A stretch of DNA of 64,000 nt, from assembly GCF_000686885.1 (NCBI RefSeq), contig NZ_JMLU01000004.1, positions 62,001 through 126,000 on the forward strand, given 5' to 3'. Below are positions 26,010-35,098 of this stretch, in pieces (positions within the stretch are counted from its first letter, which is position 1; every line of letters starts with the position of its first letter). The position numbers were made by a program, and so were the translations under genes. The notes below the pieces were generated by a model. The model saw nothing but the letters and a program-made list of their open reading frames with translations, was not told where the DNA came from and did not search any database. This DNA is from Flavobacterium sasangense DSM 21067. Its GTDB lineage: Bacteria > Bacteroidota > Bacteroidia > Flavobacteriales > Flavobacteriaceae.

Positions 26010-28412
26010 ATGAAAACAGCAACAACATCGGAAGTAGTTTCTTTTGAAGATTTCAAAAAAGAAGTCATTAACGATTATAAAATCGCCCGAATTAGTAGAG
26101 AATGTAGTCTTCTTGGAAGAAAAGAAGTACTTACAGGTAAAGCCAAATTCGGAATTTTTGGCGATGGTAAAGAAGTACCTCAATTAGCTTTAGCAAAAGC
26201 GTTTCAAAACGGAGATTTCCGTTCAGGATACTACCGAGACCAAACGTTTATGATGGCAATTGGTGCTATGAATATCGAGCAATTCTTCGCTGGATTGTAC
26301 GGCCATACCGATATTAATTTTGATCCAATGAGTGCCGGTCGTCAAATGGGCGGACATTTTGCAACACATTCATTAGACGAAAACGGAAATTGGAAAAACT
26401 TAACCCAACAAAAAAATTCGAGTTCTGACATCTCTCCTACTGCTGGGCAAATGCCGCGTTTGTTAGGATTAGCTCAGGCTTCAAAAATATACAGAAATGT
26501 TTCAGGAATCAACCAAACCAACTTCTCTGAAAACGGAAACGAAGTGGCTTGGGGAACTATCGGAAATGCTTCTACTTCTGAAGGTTTATTCTTCGAAACC
26601 ATCAATGCTGCTGGTGTTTTACAAGTACCAATGGTAATGAGCGTTTGGGACGACGAATACGGAATTTCAGTTCACGCACGTCATCAAACAACTAAAGAAA
26701 ACATCTCAGAAATTTTAAAAGGTTTCCAACGTGATGAAGAAAATAACGGTTACGAAATCTTACGTGTTAAAGGTTGGGATTACCCAGCTTTAGTAGAAAC
26801 CTATCAAAAAGCATCGCAAATTGCGCGTGAAGAACACGTTCCTGTTTTAGTGCACGTAAGCGAATTAACGCAACCGCAAGGTCACTCAACTTCTGGAAGT
26901 CACGAACGTTACAAAAATGCAGAACGTTTGGCTTGGGAAACAGAATTCGACTGTGTAGCTAAAATGAAAACTTGGTTAATTGAAAACAATATCGCTACTT
27001 CTGAAGAATTAGATGAGATTGATAGCCAAGCTAAAAAAGACGTTTTAGAAGGTAAAAAAACAGCTTGGATAAACTTTACAGCTCCAATTAAAGCTGAGCA
27101 ACAAGAGTTGGTTGGTTTGTTAAATACCATCGCTTCACAAAGTGAAAACAAAGTATTCATCGAGAAAATTGCTAACGATGTTGCTTCAATAAAAGAACCT
27201 ATTCGTAAAGATATTTTAGTAGCAGCTCGTAAAGTGTTGCGCATGATTATCAAAGAAAATTCGCGTGCGACTTTAGCTACTTGGATTGAAAACTATACGG
27301 AAAAAATCCAACCAAAATTCAGTTCACACCTATTTTCGCAATCGGATAAAACGGTTTTAAAAACGAAAGAAGTTGCTCCAACTTACGATGCAACTGCGGA
27401 AGATGTGGATGCACGTTTGGTTTTAAGAGATAACTTTGATGCTATCTTCTCAAAATATCCAGAAACCTTAATTTTTGGTGAAGATTCAGGAAACATTGGT
27501 GACGTAAACCAAGGTTTAGAAGGCATGCAAGAAAAATACGGAGAATTACGTGTTGCCGATGTGGGAATTCGTGAAGCTACGATTTTAGGTCAAGGAATTG
27601 GAATGGCAATGAGAGGATTACGTCCAATTGCTGAAATTCAATATTTAGATTATTTGTTGTACGCTATCCAAATCATGAGTGATGATTTAGCAACATTACA
27701 ATACAGAACAGCGGGGCGTCAAAAAGCACCGTTAATCATCAGAACTCGTGGTCACCGTTTAGAAGGCGTTTGGCATTCAGGTTCTCCAATGGGAATGATT
27801 ATCAATGCGATTAGAGGAATTCACGTTTTAGTTCCAAGAAATATGACCAAAGCAGCTGGTTTTTATAACACATTGTTAGAAACTGATGAGCCTGCATTAG
27901 TTGTAGAATGTTTGAACGGTTACCGTTTGAAAGAAAAAATGCCAATCAACTTAGGTGAATTCAAAACACCTATCGGAGTAGTTGAAACAATTAAAACTGG
28001 AACTGATATTACTTTAGTTTCTTACGGATCAACATTACGTTTAGTAGAACAAGCAGCAAATGAGTTAGAATCGGTTGGAATTAGCGCTGAAATTATTGAT
28101 ATTCAATCTCTATTACCTTTCGATATCAATCACGATATTGTAAAATCGGTTGCGAAAACGAATCGATTATTAGTAATTGACGAAGACGTTCCTGGTGGAG
28201 CAAGTGCTTATATTTTACAAGAAATTGTAGAAAATCAAAATGCGTATAAACATTTAGATAGCGCACCACAAACATTAGCTTCAAAAGCGCATAGACCGGC
28301 TTATGGAACGGATGGAGATTACTTCTCAAAACCTTCAGCTGAAGACATTTTTGAGAAAGTATATGCCATGATGAATGAGGCTAATCCAACAAAATATCCA
28401 AGTTTATATTAA
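26010..28412 (+). CDS. fused E1 alpha/beta 2-oxoacid dehydrogenase component
   Basis: 800-residue fusion of E1 alpha (about 1-380) and E1 beta (from about 470; LVLRDNFDAIFSKYPETLIFGED). It is the thiamine-diphosphate decarboxylase of a 2-oxoacid dehydrogenase complex, probably branched-chain 2-oxoacid. The beta part has EAQIQ-like AEIQYLDYLLYAIQ and RTRGHRLEGVWHSGSPMG. The ThDP/Mg motif region reads GNASTSEG (185-192) and later VWDDEYGIS, where usual enzymes have GDGxxSEG ... NNxYGIS. E2 and E3 are not in the window. Single gene, strong promoter upstream and the trp leader directly downstream. Confidence 0.88.
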   Translation: MKTATTSEVVSFEDFKKEVINDYKIARISRECSLLGRKEVLTGKAKFGIFGDGKEVPQLALAKAFQNGDFRSGYYRDQTFMMAIGAMNIEQFFAGLYGHTDINFDPMSAGRQMGGHFATHSLDENGNWKNLTQQKNSSSDISPTAGQMPRLLGLAQASKIYRNVSGINQTNFSENGNEVAWGTIGNASTSEGLFFETINAAGVLQVPMVMSVWDDEYGISVHARHQTTKENISEILKGFQRDEENNGYEILRVKGWDYPALVETYQKASQIAREEHVPVLVHVSELTQPQGHSTSGSHERYKNAERLAWETEFDCVAKMKTWLIENNIATSEELDEIDSQAKKDVLEGKKTAWINFTAPIKAEQQELVGLLNTIASQSENKVFIEKIANDVASIKEPIRKDILVAARKVLRMIIKENSRATLATWIENYTEKIQPKFSSHLFSQSDKTVLKTKEVAPTYDATAEDVDARLVLRDNFDAIFSKYPETLIFGEDSGNIGDVNQGLEGMQEKYGELRVADVGIREATILGQGIGMAMRGLRPIAEIQYLDYLLYAIQIMSDDLATLQYRTAGRQKAPLIIRTRGHRLEGVWHSGSPMGMIINAIRGIHVLVPRNMTKAAGFYNTLLETDEPALVVECLNGYRLKEKMPINLGEFKTPIGVVETIKTGTDITLVSYGSTLRLVEQAANELESVGISAEIIDIQSLLPFDINHDIVKSVAKTNRLLVIDEDVPGGASAYILQEIVENQNAYKHLDSAPQTLASKAHRPAYGTDGDYFSKPSAEDIFEKVYAMMNEANPTKYPSLY

Positions 28413-28417
28413 AAAAT

Positions 28418-28449
28418 TTGTTTATTCAAAAAATATTTAGAAACATTTG
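28418..28449 (+). promoter_or_regulatory. possible trp operon promoter
   Basis: TTG (28418-28420), 21-base spacer, then AACATTTG (28442-28449), one mismatch from TAnnTTTG, 18 bases before the leader-peptide ATG. It starts just after the fused E1 stop codon. Confidence 0.5.
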
Positions 28450-28467
28450 CAACATACAATTAAGAAA

Positions 28468-28524
28468 ATGATTTCAATTTTAAACAATACTTGGTGGTGG
28501 TCTAACTTACGTCAAACGTCGTGA
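28468..28524 (+). CDS. trpL: trp operon leader peptide (18 aa, Trp-Trp-Trp)
   Basis: A short frame ATG 28468 to TGA 28522-28524 encodes MISILNNTWWWSNLRQTS with three consecutive TGG codons (28492-28500). It lies between the fused E1 gene and trpE and is followed by an intrinsic terminator. This is the classical layout of attenuation control: a ribosome stalled at the Trp codons when charged tRNA-Trp is scarce frees downstream RNA to block the terminator. The Trp codons are highly unlikely by chance in AT-rich DNA immediately before a trp operon. Too short for most gene callers. Confidence 0.88.
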   Translation: MISILNNTWWWSNLRQTS

Positions 28525-28525
28525 G
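28506..28525 (+). promoter_or_regulatory. candidate attenuator pause hairpin (1:2 arm) and antiterminator strand
   Basis: Bases 28506-28511 (CTTACG) can pair with 28520-28525 (CGTGAG), one G-U pair, loop 8: the 1:2 hairpin. The overlapping GTCGTGA (28518-28524) is perfectly complementary to TCACGAC (28578-28584) in the loop and descending arm of the terminator, an alternative antiterminator pairing. The two pairings are mutually exclusive. Confidence 0.55.
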
Positions 28526-28563
28526 CGAAACCTGCTATAGTATAATTTAAAACCAATACATAG

Positions 28564-28598
28564 AAAAGGCTTGTCAATCACGACAAGCCTTTTTTTAT
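28564..28598 (+). terminator. trp attenuator terminator
   Basis: 11-bp stem AAAGGCTTGTC / GACAAGCCTTT (28565-28575 / 28582-28592), 6-base loop, then a run of T to 28597, 20 bases before the trpE ATG. Confidence 0.92.
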
Positions 28599-28617: not shown

Positions 28618-30018
28618 ATGAAAAAATATAAATTACATACCAACTACAAACAAATTCTTGCCGACACCATTACGCCGGTGAGTGTTTATTTAAAAATTCG
28701 CGATAAATTCCCGAATAGCATTTTATTGGAAAGTTCGGATTATCATGCAAATGAAAACAGTTTTTCGTACATCTGTTTCAATCCGATTGCTTCTATCAAA
28801 GTGGAAAATCAAAAAATTGAAACGAATTTTCCAGATGGCTTTTCAGAGATAATTCCAATTGATTCCAATGTAAACGTAGCGAAAGAAATCGAAAATTTTT
28901 CAAACCAATTCCAAACCGAAAAGTCAGATTTTAAATTCATTACACAAGGATTATTTGGTTATTTAGCTTACGATGCAATTAAGTATTTTGAGAAAGTTTC
29001 GATTGCTAAAAAATCAACAGAAAACGAAATTCCCGAAATCTTTTATGCTGTTTACCAGAATATCATCGCGATCAATCATTTCAAAAATGAAGCATATTTA
29101 TTCTGTCATAGCTTTGACGGAAGCAACAATATCGCTGAAATCGAACAATTATTGCAAGCGAGAAATTTTGCTTCATTTTCCTTCCAAAAATCAGGAAGCG
29201 GAACGTCAAACTTAACTGATGACGAATTCAAAAACTATGTTGCTTTAGCCAAAAAACATTGTTTACGTGGCGATGTCTTCCAATTGGTCTTATCTAGAAG
29301 ATTTTCACAAGGTTTTAAAGGTGACGAATTCAATGTTTATAGAGCTTTACGAAGCGTAAATCCTTCTCCCTATTTGTTTTATTTCGACTATGGAAATTTC
29401 AAAATATTTGGTTCATCGCCCGAAGCACAATTGGTAATCAAAAACAATTTTGCTGAAATTCATCCCATCGCAGGCACATTCAAACGCACCGGAAACGACG
29501 AACAAGATGCCGAATTAGCTAAAAAATTAGGTGAAGATACCAAAGAAAACAGCGAACATGTAATGTTAGTCGATTTAGCAAGAAATGATTTAAGCCGAAG
29601 TTGCTACGATGTGAAAGTAGAAAAATACAAAGAAGTGCAGTTTTTCTCTCACGTGATTCATTTGGTTTCAAAAGTATCCGGAAAATTAAAAGAAAATCAT
29701 ACTTTTATGGAATTAGTTGCGAAGACATTCCCAGCAGGGACATTAACCGGAGCACCAAAAGTAAAAGCCATGCAATTGATTGAAAACATAGAAAAAACCA
29801 GCCGAAGTTTCTACGGTGGAGCCATCGGAGTGTTAGATTTTGAAGGTAATTTCAATCATGCCATTATGATTCGTTCCTTTTTGAGTAAAAATCACACCTT
29901 ACATTTTCAAGCTGGAGCCGGAATAGTTGAAAGTTCCTCCGAAGAAAACGAAATGCAAGAAGTGTATAATAAATTAGGTGCTTTACAAAAAGCTTTAGAT
30001 TTAGCAGAAAACATTTAG
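28618..30018 (+). CDS. trpE: anthranilate synthase component I
   Basis: 466-residue chorismate-binding enzyme; with TrpG it makes anthranilate, the first committed step of tryptophan synthesis. The N-terminal Trp feedback motif is visible as ILLESSDY. The catalytic half has PEAQL, HPIAGTFKRTG, DLARNDLSRSC and PAGTLTGAPKVKAMQLI. First structural gene of the seven-gene trp operon, downstream of the leader and attenuator. Aminodeoxychorismate synthase is unlikely given the complete trp context. Confidence 0.96.
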   Translation: MKKYKLHTNYKQILADTITPVSVYLKIRDKFPNSILLESSDYHANENSFSYICFNPIASIKVENQKIETNFPDGFSEIIPIDSNVNVAKEIENFSNQFQTEKSDFKFITQGLFGYLAYDAIKYFEKVSIAKKSTENEIPEIFYAVYQNIIAINHFKNEAYLFCHSFDGSNNIAEIEQLLQARNFASFSFQKSGSGTSNLTDDEFKNYVALAKKHCLRGDVFQLVLSRRFSQGFKGDEFNVYRALRSVNPSPYLFYFDYGNFKIFGSSPEAQLVIKNNFAEIHPIAGTFKRTGNDEQDAELAKKLGEDTKENSEHVMLVDLARNDLSRSCYDVKVEKYKEVQFFSHVIHLVSKVSGKLKENHTFMELVAKTFPAGTLTGAPKVKAMQLIENIEKTSRSFYGGAIGVLDFEGNFNHAIMIRSFLSKNHTLHFQAGAGIVESSSEENEMQEVYNKLGALQKALDLAENI

Positions 30019-30031
30019 ACAGAAAAACATC

Positions 30032-30595
30032 ATGAAAATAGCAGTTATAGACAATTACGATAGTTTTACCTACAATTTAGTCCACTATTTAGAGGATTTG
30101 AATGCGAATGTAACCGTTTTTAGAAACGATGAATTTGAGTTGAATGAATTGGAAAAATTCGATAAAATTCTTCTTTCTCCAGGGCCAGGAATTCCAGACG
30201 AAGCGGGTTTGTTGAAAGAAGTTATCAAAAAATATGCTGCTACTAAAAGTATTTTTGGAGTTTGCCTAGGCTTGCAAGCTATCGGAGAAGTTTTTGGTGG
30301 AACTTTAACCAACCTAGAAAAAGTGTATCACGGTGTGGCAACCAAAGTCACAAAAACGGAAGATGATTTTATTTTCAACGATTTACCAAACGAATTCGAA
30401 GTGGGTCGCTACCATTCTTGGGTCGTTTCCAATGAAAATCTTCCTACCGATTTAATCGTAACTTCTACTGATGAAAACGATCAAATCATGTCGATGAAAC
30501 ACGCACATTTTGATATTCGAGGCGTTCAATATCATCCTGAAAGTGTTTTAACTCCTTTCGGAAAAAAAATCCTAGAAAATTGGCTTAGCCATTAA
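30032..30595 (+). CDS. trpG: anthranilate synthase component II (glutamine amidotransferase)
   Basis: 187-residue class I glutamine amidotransferase that supplies ammonia to TrpE. The catalytic Cys lies in GVCLGLQAIGE and the His/Glu pair in QYHPESVLTPFG. Starts 13 bases after trpE. In many organisms this subunit is shared with folate synthesis, but the operon position points to tryptophan. Confidence 0.95.
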   Translation: MKIAVIDNYDSFTYNLVHYLEDLNANVTVFRNDEFELNELEKFDKILLSPGPGIPDEAGLLKEVIKKYAATKSIFGVCLGLQAIGEVFGGTLTNLEKVYHGVATKVTKTEDDFIFNDLPNEFEVGRYHSWVVSNENLPTDLIVTSTDENDQIMSMKHAHFDIRGVQYHPESVLTPFGKKILENWLSH

Positions 30596-30689
30596 TTAAC
30601 AACAACATACACGCTTAATTTATTGCTTCACTAACACAAAATAAGTGAAGTACAGCCCAACTTATGTCCAATTTTAAAATTCGAAACAC

Positions 30690-31682
30690 ATGAAAAATAT
30701 ATTAAATCGTTTAATTCAACATGAAATCCTAACCAAAGAAGAAGCTAAAGATGTTTTGGTCAATATTTCTTCAGGAAGTTATAATCCAAGTCAAATAGCT
30801 GCTTTTATGACAGTTTACATGATGCGATCCATTACTATTGAAGAATTAGCAGGTTTCCGAGAAGCTTTGTTAGAATTGTGCATTCCTGTTGATTTTTCCG
30901 CTTACAATACGATCGATTTGTGTGGAACTGGTGGTGATGGAAAAGACACCTTTAATATTTCAACTTTAGCTTCTTTCATACTAGCTGGAGCTGGAATTAA
31001 AGTCGCAAAACATGGAAATTATGGGGTTTCTTCGATTTCAGGATCTAGCAATGTGATGGAAAAAATGGGCGTAAAATTCACTAATGACTCCGATTTCTTA
31101 ACCAAATCCATTGAAGAAACGAATATCGCTATTTTACACGCACCACTCTTCCACCCTGCCATGAAAAATGTGGGTCCGATTCGAAAAGAGTTAGGCGTGA
31201 AAACGTTTTTTAATATGTTGGGACCGATGGTAAATCCGTCGTTTCCAAAAAATCAAATGGTGGGGGTTTTTAGTTTGGAATTGGCTCGAATGTATGCGTA
31301 TTTATACCAAAACACATCTACCAACTACTCCATTTTACATGGATTAAGTGGTTTTGACGAAGTTTCATTAACCGATGAAGTAAAAATCATTTCCAACGCA
31401 TCCGAACAAATTTTAAAACCATCCGATTTCAAATTACCTGAATGTAAACTTGAAACCATCAAAGGAGGAATAACCGTAGACGAATCTGCAAAAATATTCT
31501 TCGATGTGATTTCTGGAAGAGGAACCACGGCTCAAAACAATGTGGTTTGTGCTAATGCTGCAATCGCAATTCAAACCGTTGAAAAATCGAATTATGAAGA
31601 AGCTTTAGCTAAAGCGCAAGAAAGTTTAGAAAGTGGAAAAGCATTGGAAAAATTGAAAAAATTAATCGCAATAAGTAATTAA
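30690..31682 (+). CDS. trpD: anthranilate phosphoribosyltransferase
   Basis: 330-residue enzyme transferring phosphoribose from PRPP to anthranilate. The glycine-rich PRPP site LCGTGGDGKDTFNISTLAS and the anthranilate-site stretch KHGNYGVSSISGSSNVMEKMG are intact. Separated from trpG by about 94 bases, the largest gap in the operon, containing a small inverted repeat (CTTCACT / AGTGAAG, 30626-30650) but no convincing terminator. Confidence 0.95.
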   Translation: MKNILNRLIQHEILTKEEAKDVLVNISSGSYNPSQIAAFMTVYMMRSITIEELAGFREALLELCIPVDFSAYNTIDLCGTGGDGKDTFNISTLASFILAGAGIKVAKHGNYGVSSISGSSNVMEKMGVKFTNDSDFLTKSIEETNIAILHAPLFHPAMKNVGPIRKELGVKTFFNMLGPMVNPSFPKNQMVGVFSLELARMYAYLYQNTSTNYSILHGLSGFDEVSLTDEVKIISNASEQILKPSDFKLPECKLETIKGGITVDESAKIFFDVISGRGTTAQNNVVCANAAIAIQTVEKSNYEEALAKAQESLESGKALEKLKKLIAISN

Positions 31683-31684
31683 TC

Positions 31685-32470
31685 ATGAACATTTTAGATA
31701 AAATCATCACCGACAAAAAACGAGAAGTCGAATTAAAGAAAAACATTATTCCAGTTTCACAATTAGAAACTTCAGTTTTGTTCAACTCACGAACCTATTC
31801 ATTAAGTAAACTTTTGAAAAATAGTGTTTCTGGAATTATTGCAGAGCATAAACGTCGTTCACCATCAAAAGCTATTATAAACAACAATCATTCTGTAGAA
31901 GATGTAGTTTTAGGGTACCAAAATGCTGGAGTTTGTGGAATTTCTGTTTTAACCGATGCTAAATATTTTGGTGGGAGTTTGGAAGATTTGTTATTAGCAA
32001 AAGCTTCGGTTAATATTCCGTTATTAAGAAAAGAATTCATTGTTGACGAATACCAAATCTTGGAAGCCAAAGCGCACGGAGCCGATGTAATATTACTAAT
32101 TGCAGCGGTTTTAACTCGAGAAGAAATCAAACAACTTTCTGAATTTTCTCAAAGTTTAGGATTGGAAGTATTATTGGAAGTTCACAATTTGGAGGAATTG
32201 GAAAAATCGATTATGTCAAGTTTAGATATGATCGGCGTGAACAATCGCAATTTAAAAACCTTCGAAGTGAGTTTGAATTACAGCAAAGAATTAGCTACAA
32301 AAATTCCAGATGAATTTGTAAAAGTTTCAGAAAGTGGCATTAGTTCTATTGATGCAGTTAAAGAATTACAACAATATGGTTATCAAGGCTTTTTAATGGG
32401 AGAACATTTCATGAAAACCGAAAATCCGGGTTTGGAAGCTAAACGATTCATTCAAAAATTAATGTCATGA
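31685..32470 (+). CDS. trpC: indole-3-glycerol phosphate synthase
   Basis: 261-residue TIM-barrel enzyme closing the indole ring. Motifs: IIAEHKRRSPSK (catalytic Lys), VLTDAKYFGGSLEDL, LLRKEFIVDEYQI, VNNRNLKTFEV and SESGISSIDAV. Begins 2 bases after the trpD stop and overlaps trpF by 4 bases (ATGA), typical translational coupling. Confidence 0.96.
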   Translation: MNILDKIITDKKREVELKKNIIPVSQLETSVLFNSRTYSLSKLLKNSVSGIIAEHKRRSPSKAIINNNHSVEDVVLGYQNAGVCGISVLTDAKYFGGSLEDLLLAKASVNIPLLRKEFIVDEYQILEAKAHGADVILLIAAVLTREEIKQLSEFSQSLGLEVLLEVHNLEELEKSIMSSLDMIGVNNRNLKTFEVSLNYSKELATKIPDEFVKVSESGISSIDAVKELQQYGYQGFLMGEHFMKTENPGLEAKRFIQKLMS

Positions 32471-33102
32471 AAAACATAAAACTAAAAATTTGTGGTATGA
32501 AAGATTCGGAAAACATCACGGAAATTTCGACTTTACAACCTGATTATCTTGGTTTAATCTTTTGGGAAAATTCAAAACGAAATATGACTTTAGACGCTAT
32601 TCCTGAACTTTCTGAAACCACAAAAAAAGTTGGAGTTTTTGTAGATGCTTCCATACAAGAAATTGCTGCAAAAATTAATCAATATCAATTAGACGTCATT
32701 CAATTACATGGAAATGAGTCGGTTATTTTTTGTAAAAACGTAAAAAAACTCGGTGTTGAAGTCATCAAAGTTTTTTCTATGGATTCGACATTCAATTTTT
32801 CAAAATTAAAAGAATATGTATTTACTGTCGATTATTTTCTCTTTGATACCAAAGGAAAATTACCAGGAGGAAACGGAATTACTTTCGATTGGAATGTTTT
32901 GGAAAACTATCACTACACTATTCCTTACTTTTTAAGTGGTGGAATTGGAAATACAGAAATTGACGGATTAAAAGAATTTCTAAAATCATCCGCTGCAAAT
33001 AAGTGCTATGGAATTGATGTTAACAGTCGTTTTGAAAAAAAACCTGGAATCAAAAATAAAATCAAATTACAAAAATTTAAAAAATTGCTATATGAAAACT
33101 AA
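32467..33102 (+). CDS. trpF: phosphoribosylanthranilate isomerase
   Basis: 211-residue TIM-barrel isomerase. Opening [12 protein letters not shown] (catalytic Cys) and later [22 protein letters not shown] with the catalytic Asp; C-terminal FLSGGIGN phosphate loop. Overlaps trpC by 4 bases and trpB by 11 bases. Confidence 0.95.
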
Positions 33103-34285
33103 GTATAATGTTGATGAAAACGGATTTTACGGCCAATTTGGAGGCGCATTTATTCCCGAAATGTTATACCCCAATGTTGAGGAATTAAAAGAAAACTACT
33201 TAAAAATCATGGCCGAACCTTCTTTTAAAGAGGAGTTTAACGACTTATTACAACAATTTGTGGGTCGTCCAACGCCTTTGTATTTTGCCAAACGTTTATC
33301 CAAAAAATACAACACCAAAATCTACTTGAAGCGAGAAGATTTATGTCACACTGGAGCACACAAAATCAACAACACCATCGGTCAAATTTTAGTCGCCAAA
33401 CGTTTAGGCAAAAGCCGAATTATTGCCGAAACTGGCGCTGGTCAACACGGTGTAGCAACAGCAACGGTTTGCTCTTTAATGGGATTAGAATGCATTGTAT
33501 ACATGGGTGAAGTCGATGTCAAAAGACAAGCACCAAACGTAGCTCGCATGAAAATGTTGGGCGCAGAAGTTCGTCCAGCAACATCGGGTTCGAAAACTTT
33601 GAAAGATGCTACTAATGAAGCGATTCGCGATTGGATTAATAATCCGATTGATACGTTTTACATCATTGGCTCTGTAGTGGGACCTCATCCTTATCCCGAT
33701 ATGGTGGCACGATTTCAAAGTGTGATTTCTAAAGAAATTAAATCCCAACTATTAGCTCAAGAAGGGAAAGAAAATCCTGATTACGTTATCGCTTGTGTTG
33801 GTGGCGGAAGCAATGCTGCTGGAGCTTTTTACGAATTTTTAGACGAAGAATCGGTGAAATTAATTGCTGTGGAAGCGGCTGGGCATGGAGTTGAATCGGG
33901 AGAAAGTGCTGCGACTTCTGTTTTAGGGAAAATCGGAATCATTCACGGAAGTAAAACTTTATTAATGCAAACTGAGGATGGTCAAATAACAGAACCTTAC
34001 TCTATTTCCGCTGGATTGGATTACCCAGGAGTTGGTCCGCTTCATGCTCATTTACACGATACCAAAAGAGCGGAATTCATCGCAATAACAGATTCCGAAG
34101 CCATGCAATCTGGATTAGATTTATCAAAAACAGAAGGGATTATTCCAGCAATTGAAACGGCTCATGCTTTTTCAGTTTTGGATAAAAAACAATTCCAACC
34201 TAATGATATTGTTGTTATCAACTTATCTGGAAGAGGCGATAAAGATTTGAATACGTATATCGATTATTTTAAGTTTAGCGAATAG
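33092..34285 (+). CDS. trpB: tryptophan synthase beta chain
   Basis: 397-residue PLP enzyme joining indole and serine. PLP lysine in [36 protein letters not shown], ammonia/phosphate loop GGGSNAAG, and the C-terminal [13 protein letters not shown] 33092 ([18 protein letters not shown]) is the proper start; the longer frame from 33008 lies within trpF. TrpB overlaps trpF by 11 bases. Confidence 0.97.
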
Positions 34286-34290
34286 TAATA

Positions 34291-34306
34291 AGTGAAAAGT
34301 GATTAG
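34291..34306. repeat. dispersed repeat word between trpB and trpA
   Basis: AGTGAAAAGTGATTAG here matches AGTAAAAAGTGATTAG at 59618-59633 in 15 of 16 bases, 25 kb away. Both are intergenic. Confidence 0.6.
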
Positions 34307-34321
34307 CCTAAAACAAATAAT

Positions 34322-35098
34322 ATGAACAGAATCAACCAAAAATTACAAGAAGATAGAAAACTGCTTTCCATTTATTTCACAGCAGGATTTCCGCAAATAA
34401 ACGACACTGTTTCCATTATTCAGGAATTGGAAAAAAATGGTGTCGACATGATTGAAATTGGGTTACCTTTTTCTGATCCATTAGCCGATGGACCAACCAT
34501 TCAAGAAAGTTCTACAATTGCTATCGAAAACGGCATGACGACTTCACTCCTATTCGAACAATTGAAAGACATTAGAAAAACCGTTCAAATTCCTTTAATC
34601 ATCATGGGTTATTTTAATCCGATGATGCAATTTGGAATAGAGAAATTTTGTCAAAAATGTGCTGAAGTTGGGATTGATGGCTTAATTATTCCCGATTTAC
34701 CACTATTCGTTTACGAAACAGAATACAAAGCGATTTTTGAACAGTACAATTTAAAAAACATCTTTTTGATTTCGCCACAAAATTCGGAAGAAAGGATTCA
34801 ACAAATCGATGCGATTTCCGATAGTTTTATTTATATGGTGAGTTCGGCTGCCGTTACTGGAAGTCAATCAGGATTTGGTTCGGCGCAAATGGATTATTTC
34901 AAACGAATTTCAAATTTAAACTTGAAAAATCCTCAAATTGTTGGTTTTGGAATTAAAGATGAAGAAACGTTTGAACAAGCGACGAAATATCAAAAAGGTG
35001 CTATAATTGGAAGTGCATTTATCAACTTTTTGAAGGAAAATCCGATTTCAGACATTTCAAAATTTATAGATAGCATAATTAAAAAATCCCGAGCCTAA
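34322..35098 (+). CDS. trpA: tryptophan synthase alpha chain
   Basis: 258-residue TIM-barrel subunit releasing indole from indole-3-glycerol phosphate. Catalytic Glu and Asp regions: YFTAGFPQINDT, MIEIGLPFSDPLADGPTIQ; phosphate sites IGFGI-like VGFGIKDEETF and GAIIGSAFI. Last gene of the trp operon; its stop codon sits inside the loop of the operon terminator. Confidence 0.96.
   Translation: MNRINQKLQEDRKLLSIYFTAGFPQINDTVSIIQELEKNGVDMIEIGLPFSDPLADGPTIQESSTIAIENGMTTSLLFEQLKDIRKTVQIPLIIMGYFNPMMQFGIEKFCQKCAEVGIDGLIIPDLPLFVYETEYKAIFEQYNLKNIFLISPQNSEERIQQIDAISDSFIYMVSSAAVTGSQSGFGSAQMDYFKRISNLNLKNPQIVGFGIKDEETFEQATKYQKGAIIGSAFINFLKENPISDISKFIDSIIKKSRA

Follow-up and report, generated by a model that had tools for sequence, protein, structure and literature searches.

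A putative trp attenuator of Bacteroidota in which the antiterminator strand is complementary to the loop and descending arm of the terminator

The trp leader and its surroundings

The window, by which we mean the whole stretch of 64,000 nt analysed here, contains the genes trpEGDCFBA, which are preceded by a short ORF with three consecutive Trp codons and by an intrinsic terminator (Table 1). Both elements had been pointed out in an initial annotation, and direct reading of the sequence confirmed them together with a hairpin between segments 1 and 2, which appears in the minimum free energy (MFE) fold with six base pairs and a local energy of -5.9 kcal/mol. The best NCBIfam match of trpE is TIGR00564 (trpE_most) with 424 bits, below the cut-off of 517.7 of this model. 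The ORFs from trpG to trpA also served as tblastn queries for the downstream trp genes of relatives. Directly upstream of the leader, at 26010-28412, lies a gene for a fused E1 dehydrogenase with the alpha and beta parts in one protein of 800 aa; such a gene precedes the trp leader in four of the first 78 loci mentioned below (L003, which is the copy of the window, L001, L007 and L009).

Table 1. Features of the trp leader region, with positions in the window.
Feature	Position	Strand	Basis and remarks
Promoter-like sequence	28417..28449	+	TTTG at 28417-28420 and AACATTTG at 28442-28449; imperfect TAnnTTTG
Match to Rfam RF01692 (Bacteroid-trp)	28448..28575	+	80.7 bits, gathering threshold 49
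Leader peptide ORF, MISILNNTWWWSNLRQTS and stop TGA	28468..28524	+	Read directly; ATG at 28468
Long outer stem, 5' strand	28478..28484	+	MFE fold; pairs with 28546-28552
Three Trp codons (sensor)	28492..28500	+	Read directly
Segment 1, CTTACG	28506..28511	+	MFE fold, covariation of outermost pair; pairs with 28520-28525
Segment 2, GTCGTGAG, antiterminator strand	28518..28525	+	Complementarity, anchored alignment, covariation; 28518-28524 complementary to the terminator, 28520-28525 to segment 1
Stop codon of the leader, TGA	28522-28524	+	Read directly
Long outer stem, 3' strand	28546..28552	+	MFE fold
Terminator, ascending arm	28564..28575	+	Read directly, fold, terminator covariation
Terminator loop AATCAC, target of segment 2	28576..28581	+	Anchored alignment, covariation, folding
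Terminator, descending arm	28582..28593	+	First three nt (GAC) also pair with segment 2
Terminator, T run	28590..28596	+	Read directly
trpE (anthranilate synthase component I), first controlled gene	28618..30018	+	ORF and NCBIfam
trpG, trpD, trpC, trpF, trpB, trpA	30032..35098	+	ORFs; named from sequence and gene order

The Bacteroidetes promoter consensus is TAnnTTTG. Of 165 distinct upstream stretches, 132 contain TANNTTTG within the last 60 nt ahead of the leader start codon, compared to 167 of 3300 mononucleotide shuffles; the copy in the window deviates from it by one base.

Bacteroid-trp elements contain a small ORF in which at least two Trp codons occur. The element of the window scores above the gathering threshold of RF01692, has trp genes downstream and contains a short ORF with WWW. 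RF01692 is the sole Rfam match at the gathering threshold in the whole window, which therefore holds no T-box match at this threshold; a match to RF00513 (Trp_leader) was likewise not obtained. In the ribosome-free MFE fold, the long outer stem, with 28478-28484/28546-28552 as its outermost part, encloses the Trp codons and pairs them, and the RF01692 model likewise draws a long stem over the Trp codons. The family identity and this stem are additions to the initial annotation. The consensus of the model stops at the end of the ascending arm and its last 27 positions are unpaired. Thus, the element resembles RF01692 in its score, in its position as a Trp leader before Bacteroidetes trp genes and in the conserved stem with the Trp codons, but it differs from the Rfam model (with which the comparison was made) in that the model contains neither the terminator nor the pairing between leader and loop.

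The source of RF01692, PMC2864571, lists it in its Table 1 as a probable cis-regulator of Bacteroidetes and uses the term once in the main text, while PMC6414381, in the parts considered, compares an element ahead of the Flavobacterium psychrophilum trp operon with the E. coli attenuator. Since these sources cover it, the attenuator as such is already known. A description of the pairing between leader and loop was not found in the openly accessible literature searched.

At E values up to 0.001, RF01692 was found in 25 of 60 relatives. Among 299 genomes from the family of the window (f1, which we take to be Flavobacteriaceae) 208 gave a match, and among 395 genomes of its class 27 did so, 13 of these 27 belonging to its own family. 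All 78 loci found with RF01692 have a leader with WW or WWW plus a terminator. When 164 Trp leaders were counted by a script that accepted leaders with at least WW only, the Trp run was three codons long in 152, two in ten and four in two. A trp gene is located 3' of the leader in 78 of 78 loci; in most cases it is trpE, in the families f47, f71 and f92 and in L024 it is trpB, and in f55 it is trpD. In the latter family (L072, L073, L075, L076, L136 and L138-L142) the Trp leader thus precedes trpD instead of trpE, which suggests a split operon. Two Trp leaders and two terminators are arranged in tandem before trpE in L025 (positions 75-360), the second leader having a 7-bp match to its loop (TGCGGGA/TTCCGCA). 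In two more distant families, Trp-run leaders precede a gene for a TrpB-like enzyme (NF009057; L163, with the leader read in L129, and L164, with the leader in L160), and the L129 leader shows a 9-bp pairing wholly inside the terminator loop.

The antiterminator strand and its partner in relatives

In the textbook trp layout the antiterminator strand pairs with the ascending arm of the terminator. The element of the window resembles the E. coli-type trp attenuator (RF00513) in having a leader peptide with tandem Trp codons, a 1:2 hairpin, an antiterminator that excludes the terminator, and the terminator itself. The difference lies in the strand GTCGTGA at 28518-28524, which overlaps the leader stop codon. 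It is the exact complement of TCACGAC at 28578-28584 (duplex energy -11.4 kcal/mol), and this target comprises the terminator loop and the start of the descending arm instead of the ascending arm. In other words, the leader strand of the window mimics the ascending arm, whereas the textbook leader strand mimics the descending arm.

The fold as a whole is more stable than all of 200 shuffles (z of -6.4). The 7-bp complement alone is mildly unusual in the copy of the window, as one of 100 dinucleotide shuffles of the leader segment was as good, and in the same test over 63 f1 loci this fraction ranged from 0.00 to 0.22. The reason for considering the complement not to be due to chance is the comparative evidence (covariation, permutation and helix survey) and not shuffles of single sequences.

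Anchoring at CGTRA was possible in 73 of the 78 loci (L025, L070, L071, L072 and L078 were left out, while three f55 rows with another layout, L073, L075 and L076, were kept), and the six core pairs of the leader with the loop and descending arm are formed in 71, 73, 72, 73, 69 and 66 of these 73. In f1 the two strands show almost no variation, GTCGTGA opposite TCACGAC being the usual combination. The loop is ATTCAC in a sub-clade with TTCGTGAA, by which one pair is lost at one end and one is gained at the other. Because the paired strands hardly vary, covariation within the family of the window is thin. The conservation predicted by the initial annotation was found for the Trp run and for the leader-terminator pairing; compensatory changes are scarce within f1 and are seen across families.

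Covariation was analysed in 42 sequences, which were hand-picked from the 78 for the loop/descending layout. The leader-terminator helix of eight pairs is formed in 88.6% of the cells and contains 15 doubly changed cells in comparison to 4.6 after shuffling (0 of 500 shuffles as good); its covariation score is 0.154 vs 0.117 for shuffles (0 of 500), and slid versions reached at most 0.092. However, double changes occur in two pairs, a number that shuffles also reach in 345 of 500 cases (mean 1.8). In the terminator 97.6% of the cells are paired and 7 of 12 pairs show double changes. The outermost pair of the 1:2 hairpin occurs as C-G, U-A and A-U, with 12 doubly changed cells among the 42 sequences; for this hairpin the slid control scored higher (0.263 vs 0.180).

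For a wider set, a model named R1 was built here and searched over the phylum and the family f5, which is probably the Chryseobacterium family, judging from the Lys leaders that it has in common with named Chryseobacterium records. The matching stretches were fetched. The script was given 194 loci; it called both a leader and a terminator in 175, and the other 19 were discarded. Among the weak R1 matches with E > 1e-6, most of those in 20 fetched stretches turned out to be ordinary terminators without a Trp leader. When leaders were matched with their own terminators (44 clusters), the summed duplex energy was -667.9 kcal/mol, while the best of 20,000 permutations reached -581.8, so that none was as good as the observed matching; this set retains the miscalled or doubtful L227, L144, L160, L025 and L224 as well as L129 and L132 with their terminators misplaced, all of which makes the test less sharp.

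We then classified the best helix in 158 distinct leader-terminator pairs, from which L227 had been removed by hand since it is the end of a protein and not a leader. The partner is the loop plus the descending arm in 106, the ascending side in 46, both in five and the loop only in one. These counts include L144 (wrong frame, wrong terminator) as loop plus descending arm, the doubtful L160 and L224 as ascending, and only the first of the two leaders of L025; L071, L147 and L180 have an uncertain best helix at the far end of the descending arm, and five of the 158 helices are shorter than 6 bp. In f1 the best helix involves the loop and descending arm in 66 of 68 distinct leaders, with L144 miscalled and L071 and L147 doubtful. 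The same geometry is built from unrelated sequences in other families, namely GGGATG/CATCCC in f82, TCGCTGTGA/TCACAGCGG in f50 and TCTCGGTGA/TCACTGAGA in f97, and a compensatory change from GTTGGTTC/GAACCGAC to GTTGATTC/GAATCGAC was found inside one genus label (g585 of f5; L186, L192). In line with the initial annotation, the leader-terminator pairing co-varies across families, and its unusual register is borne out by covariation, permutation and helix survey.

The loop-plus-descending layout predicted from the sequences is not universal in the RNA family. The ascending layout was found in ten of ten distinct f55 leaders, in 28 of 52 distinct Trp leaders of f5 and, in the genus label of the window itself, in G1019 (L148), where GTGAACAGC/GCTGTTCAC form 9 bp in the textbook register. 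Similarly, the coverage of the leader stop codon noted in the initial annotation is found in 46 of 70 distinct f1 leaders, but not as a requirement: in 12 the conserved strand has its TGA past the leader stop, in 10 this TGA is in another frame, and two leaders, one of them the miscalled L144, yielded no such strand. Going by these sequences, the overlap is common and not essential, as 22 of the 70 keep a CGTGA or AGTGA strand with the stop elsewhere.

The his attenuator of the same genome (L090:189-305, G000 C13) also combines a leader with a codon run (MFLNQLHHHHHTSAQAK, five His codons) and a terminator, located before hisG, but it uses the textbook register. Its CTCAAGCG pairs with CGTTTGAG, with 7-8 pairs in the ascending arm and 1-2 in the loop. 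The ascending side is used in the own genome and in seven of seven relatives (L089, L276-L282), which were picked among genomes with loop-plus-descending trp leaders. The his leader region L090 gave no Rfam match at the gathering threshold. In a search with PF01371, no TrpR match was obtained in the own genome, while E. coli and B. subtilis were matched among 14 controls. Another motif considered for comparison, the fhsA motif, is listed in PMC11109978 among weak riboswitch candidates and has 7 of 52 representatives in Leptotrichia; it differs in that no leader peptide is mentioned for it in the excerpts of that paper.

Leaders with Lys codons before aspartokinase genes

In f5 we found leaders of the type MILSNLKK(A/S/G)KKQ(N/Y/S)LR.. 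with minor variants, which end in NLRRTS like the trp leaders and carry the same terminator core, while four Lys codons replace the Trp codons. Some of them share a stretch of 22 nt, AACTTACGTCGAACGTCGTGAG, with the f1 trp leaders L012 and L047. Model R2, which was made from 11 Lys leaders, detected them in 25 of 246 f5 genomes, which belong to 3 of 33 genera, and yielded no weaker matches at E up to 1e-4. In 25 of 25 cases an aspartokinase gene starts 150-162 nt after the start of the Lys leader, and all 15 peptide variants have an intact KK.KK. The protein of L161 is an aspartate kinase according to TIGR00657 (over cut-off), its best match being lysine-sensitive aspartokinase 3 (under the cut-off of that model). 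The Lys leaders were read in L122, L123, L205, L211, L212, L214, L245, L246, L248-L272, L167, L169 and L170, some of which are the same places, and named records include Chryseobacterium candidae, aquifrigidense and flavum.

A pattern search for Lys leaders matched 26 of 236 f5 genomes; 23 remained after removal of other sequences (G1246, G1231, G1247 and the second match of G1201 carry another sequence), and all 23 were also found by R2. The lone match in the family of the window (L273, one of 239 genomes) is not a leader. A pattern scan of contigs yielded 12 loci, comprising three Lys leaders, four trp leaders of Myroides and five matches that look like chance. Five genomes with a Lys leader also hold a separate trp leader of the ascending layout (L208, L209, L213, L215, L244), and therefore the Lys copy appears to be an f1-type capture module in which the sensor codons have been exchanged. 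The two Lys loci that were scanned, L122 and L123, have no Rfam match at E up to 0.1, and a Lys leader before aspartokinase in Bacteroidetes was not described in the literature searched, within the same scope as above. A Shewanella paper (PMC2659441) reportedly concerns aspartokinase and a leader peptide.

Predicted folding, mechanism and meaning

In the folding predictions all RNA from 13 nt downstream of the first A-site base onwards was treated as free, in agreement with the ribosome footprint. With the ribosome stalled at the second or third Trp codon, the probability of pairing between segment 2 and the loop is at least 0.84 for transcripts ending at 28581-28588. When the first Trp codon occupies the A site, this pairing dominates only for ends from 28582 to 28586 (0.54 at 28587), and stalling there works less well because segment 1 stays uncovered. 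The probability is 0 with the ribosome at the stop codon and at most 0.12 without ribosome, and in both cases the terminator wins. According to these predictions, the position of the ribosome thus decides between mutually exclusive structures. Since the complete terminator is more stable than the antiterminator by 4.5 kcal/mol (-21.5 vs -17.0), the decision must be kinetic, by trapped folding or polymerase pausing.

The same calculation was extended to 111 leaders with a helix leaning to the loop or the descending arm (spanning and loop-only cases included) and to 43 ascending leaders; L227, L144, L160, L025 and L224 were excluded since their leader or terminator was wrongly or doubtfully called. 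The median capture window is 8 nt in the former and 17 nt in the latter. A capture window of at least 3 nt is predicted for 105 of the 111 when the ribosome is stalled, for 27 when it is absent and for three when it is at the stop; the corresponding numbers for the 43 ascending leaders are 42, 20 and 0. In six of the 111, capture is not predicted even in the stalled state. Capture windows of at least 7 nt were seen in 40 of 175 trials with shuffled leader segments (35 of the 111 leaders, five shuffles each), compared to 99 of 111 observed.

We propose, at a probability of roughly 0.8, that the region attenuates transcription of the trp operon under the control of the ribosome and is a member of RF01692 in a 'loop-capture' version. 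The DNA itself reveals a Trp leader, a 1:2 hairpin and an intrinsic terminator; in addition, segment 2 is complementary to the loop and to the first part of the descending arm, and this match is conserved and co-varies. The Trp-codon attenuator claimed initially is supported by this anatomy, by the location ahead of trpE and by the conservation. Control would be exerted by the charging of tRNA-Trp. When charged tRNA-Trp is scarce, the ribosome would stall on the Trp codons and cover segment 1. The freed segment 2 would then seize the terminator loop while this emerges from the polymerase and the descending arm is still incomplete, the terminator hairpin would fail to nucleate and trpEGDCFBA would be transcribed. 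When Trp is plentiful, the ribosome would reach the stop codon and cover segment 2, and the terminator would form; in the absence of a ribosome, segment 2 would be locked in the 1:2 hairpin with the same outcome.

The alternative that survives best is that the leader-loop helix does not replace the hairpin and forms a pseudoknot or kissing complex with the outer terminator stem, by which termination is weakened or timed. Segment 2 consumes only three of the 12 stem pairs, therefore the nine outer pairs could still form, and targets located mostly in the loop do exist (nine of nine pairs in L129 of f97, five of six in f82). Such a complex lies outside what the nested folding used here can represent, so that the predictions do not distinguish it from hairpin replacement; we regard it as unlikely, at about one chance in four. 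Far less probable is a textbook attenuator with a working antiterminator directed against the ascending arm and an incidental loop complement. Although the ascending side is used by the his leaders of the same genomes (8 of 8) and by many trp leaders (46 of 158), the helix survey in f1 stands against it, as do the permutation test and the retention of the strand in the 22 f1 leaders in which it does not provide the stop codon. These 22 leaders, with the strand out of frame or past the stop, also speak against conservation of GTCGTGA for the last codons and stop of the leader or as a protein-binding site; this reading, which could draw on the 46 leaders in which its TGA is the stop, is very improbable, as the partner strands change jointly in other families. 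Finally, sensing of Trp by a T-box, TRAP or a riboswitch instead of a translating ribosome can hardly be maintained, for no point in its favour was found in the Rfam scan of the window, which gave RF01692 alone at the gathering threshold, the Trp run is present in 78 of 78 loci found by RNA score and not by peptide, and the copies before aspartokinase have Lys codons.

In its predicted function, the element is unremarkable within a known family, but the register of its antiterminator, favoured here as loop capture, is a real, conserved variant, which the initial annotation rightly pointed out. We think it somewhat probable that this represents a second attenuation architecture of Bacteroidota, with a leader strand that mimics the ascending arm, a loop that serves as a toehold and a decision that falls within approximately 8 nt of transcription; lineages would have switched between the registers, also within one genus label, and the architecture would be a portable module, sensing lysine before aspartokinase in relatives of Chryseobacterium. 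Since the textbook antiterminator is directed against the ascending arm, which is transcribed first, it has an advantage in time. The target of loop capture is made later, and therefore the switch should depend sharply on polymerase speed, pausing and close coupling between ribosome and polymerase. The trp and his layouts differ in one cell and related genomes hold both trp layouts, which offers a ready comparison. Last but not least, the Lys leader points to lysine control of aspartokinase, for which nothing comparable was found in the Rfam models or papers searched, and suggests that the RNA switch can be combined with other sensor codons.
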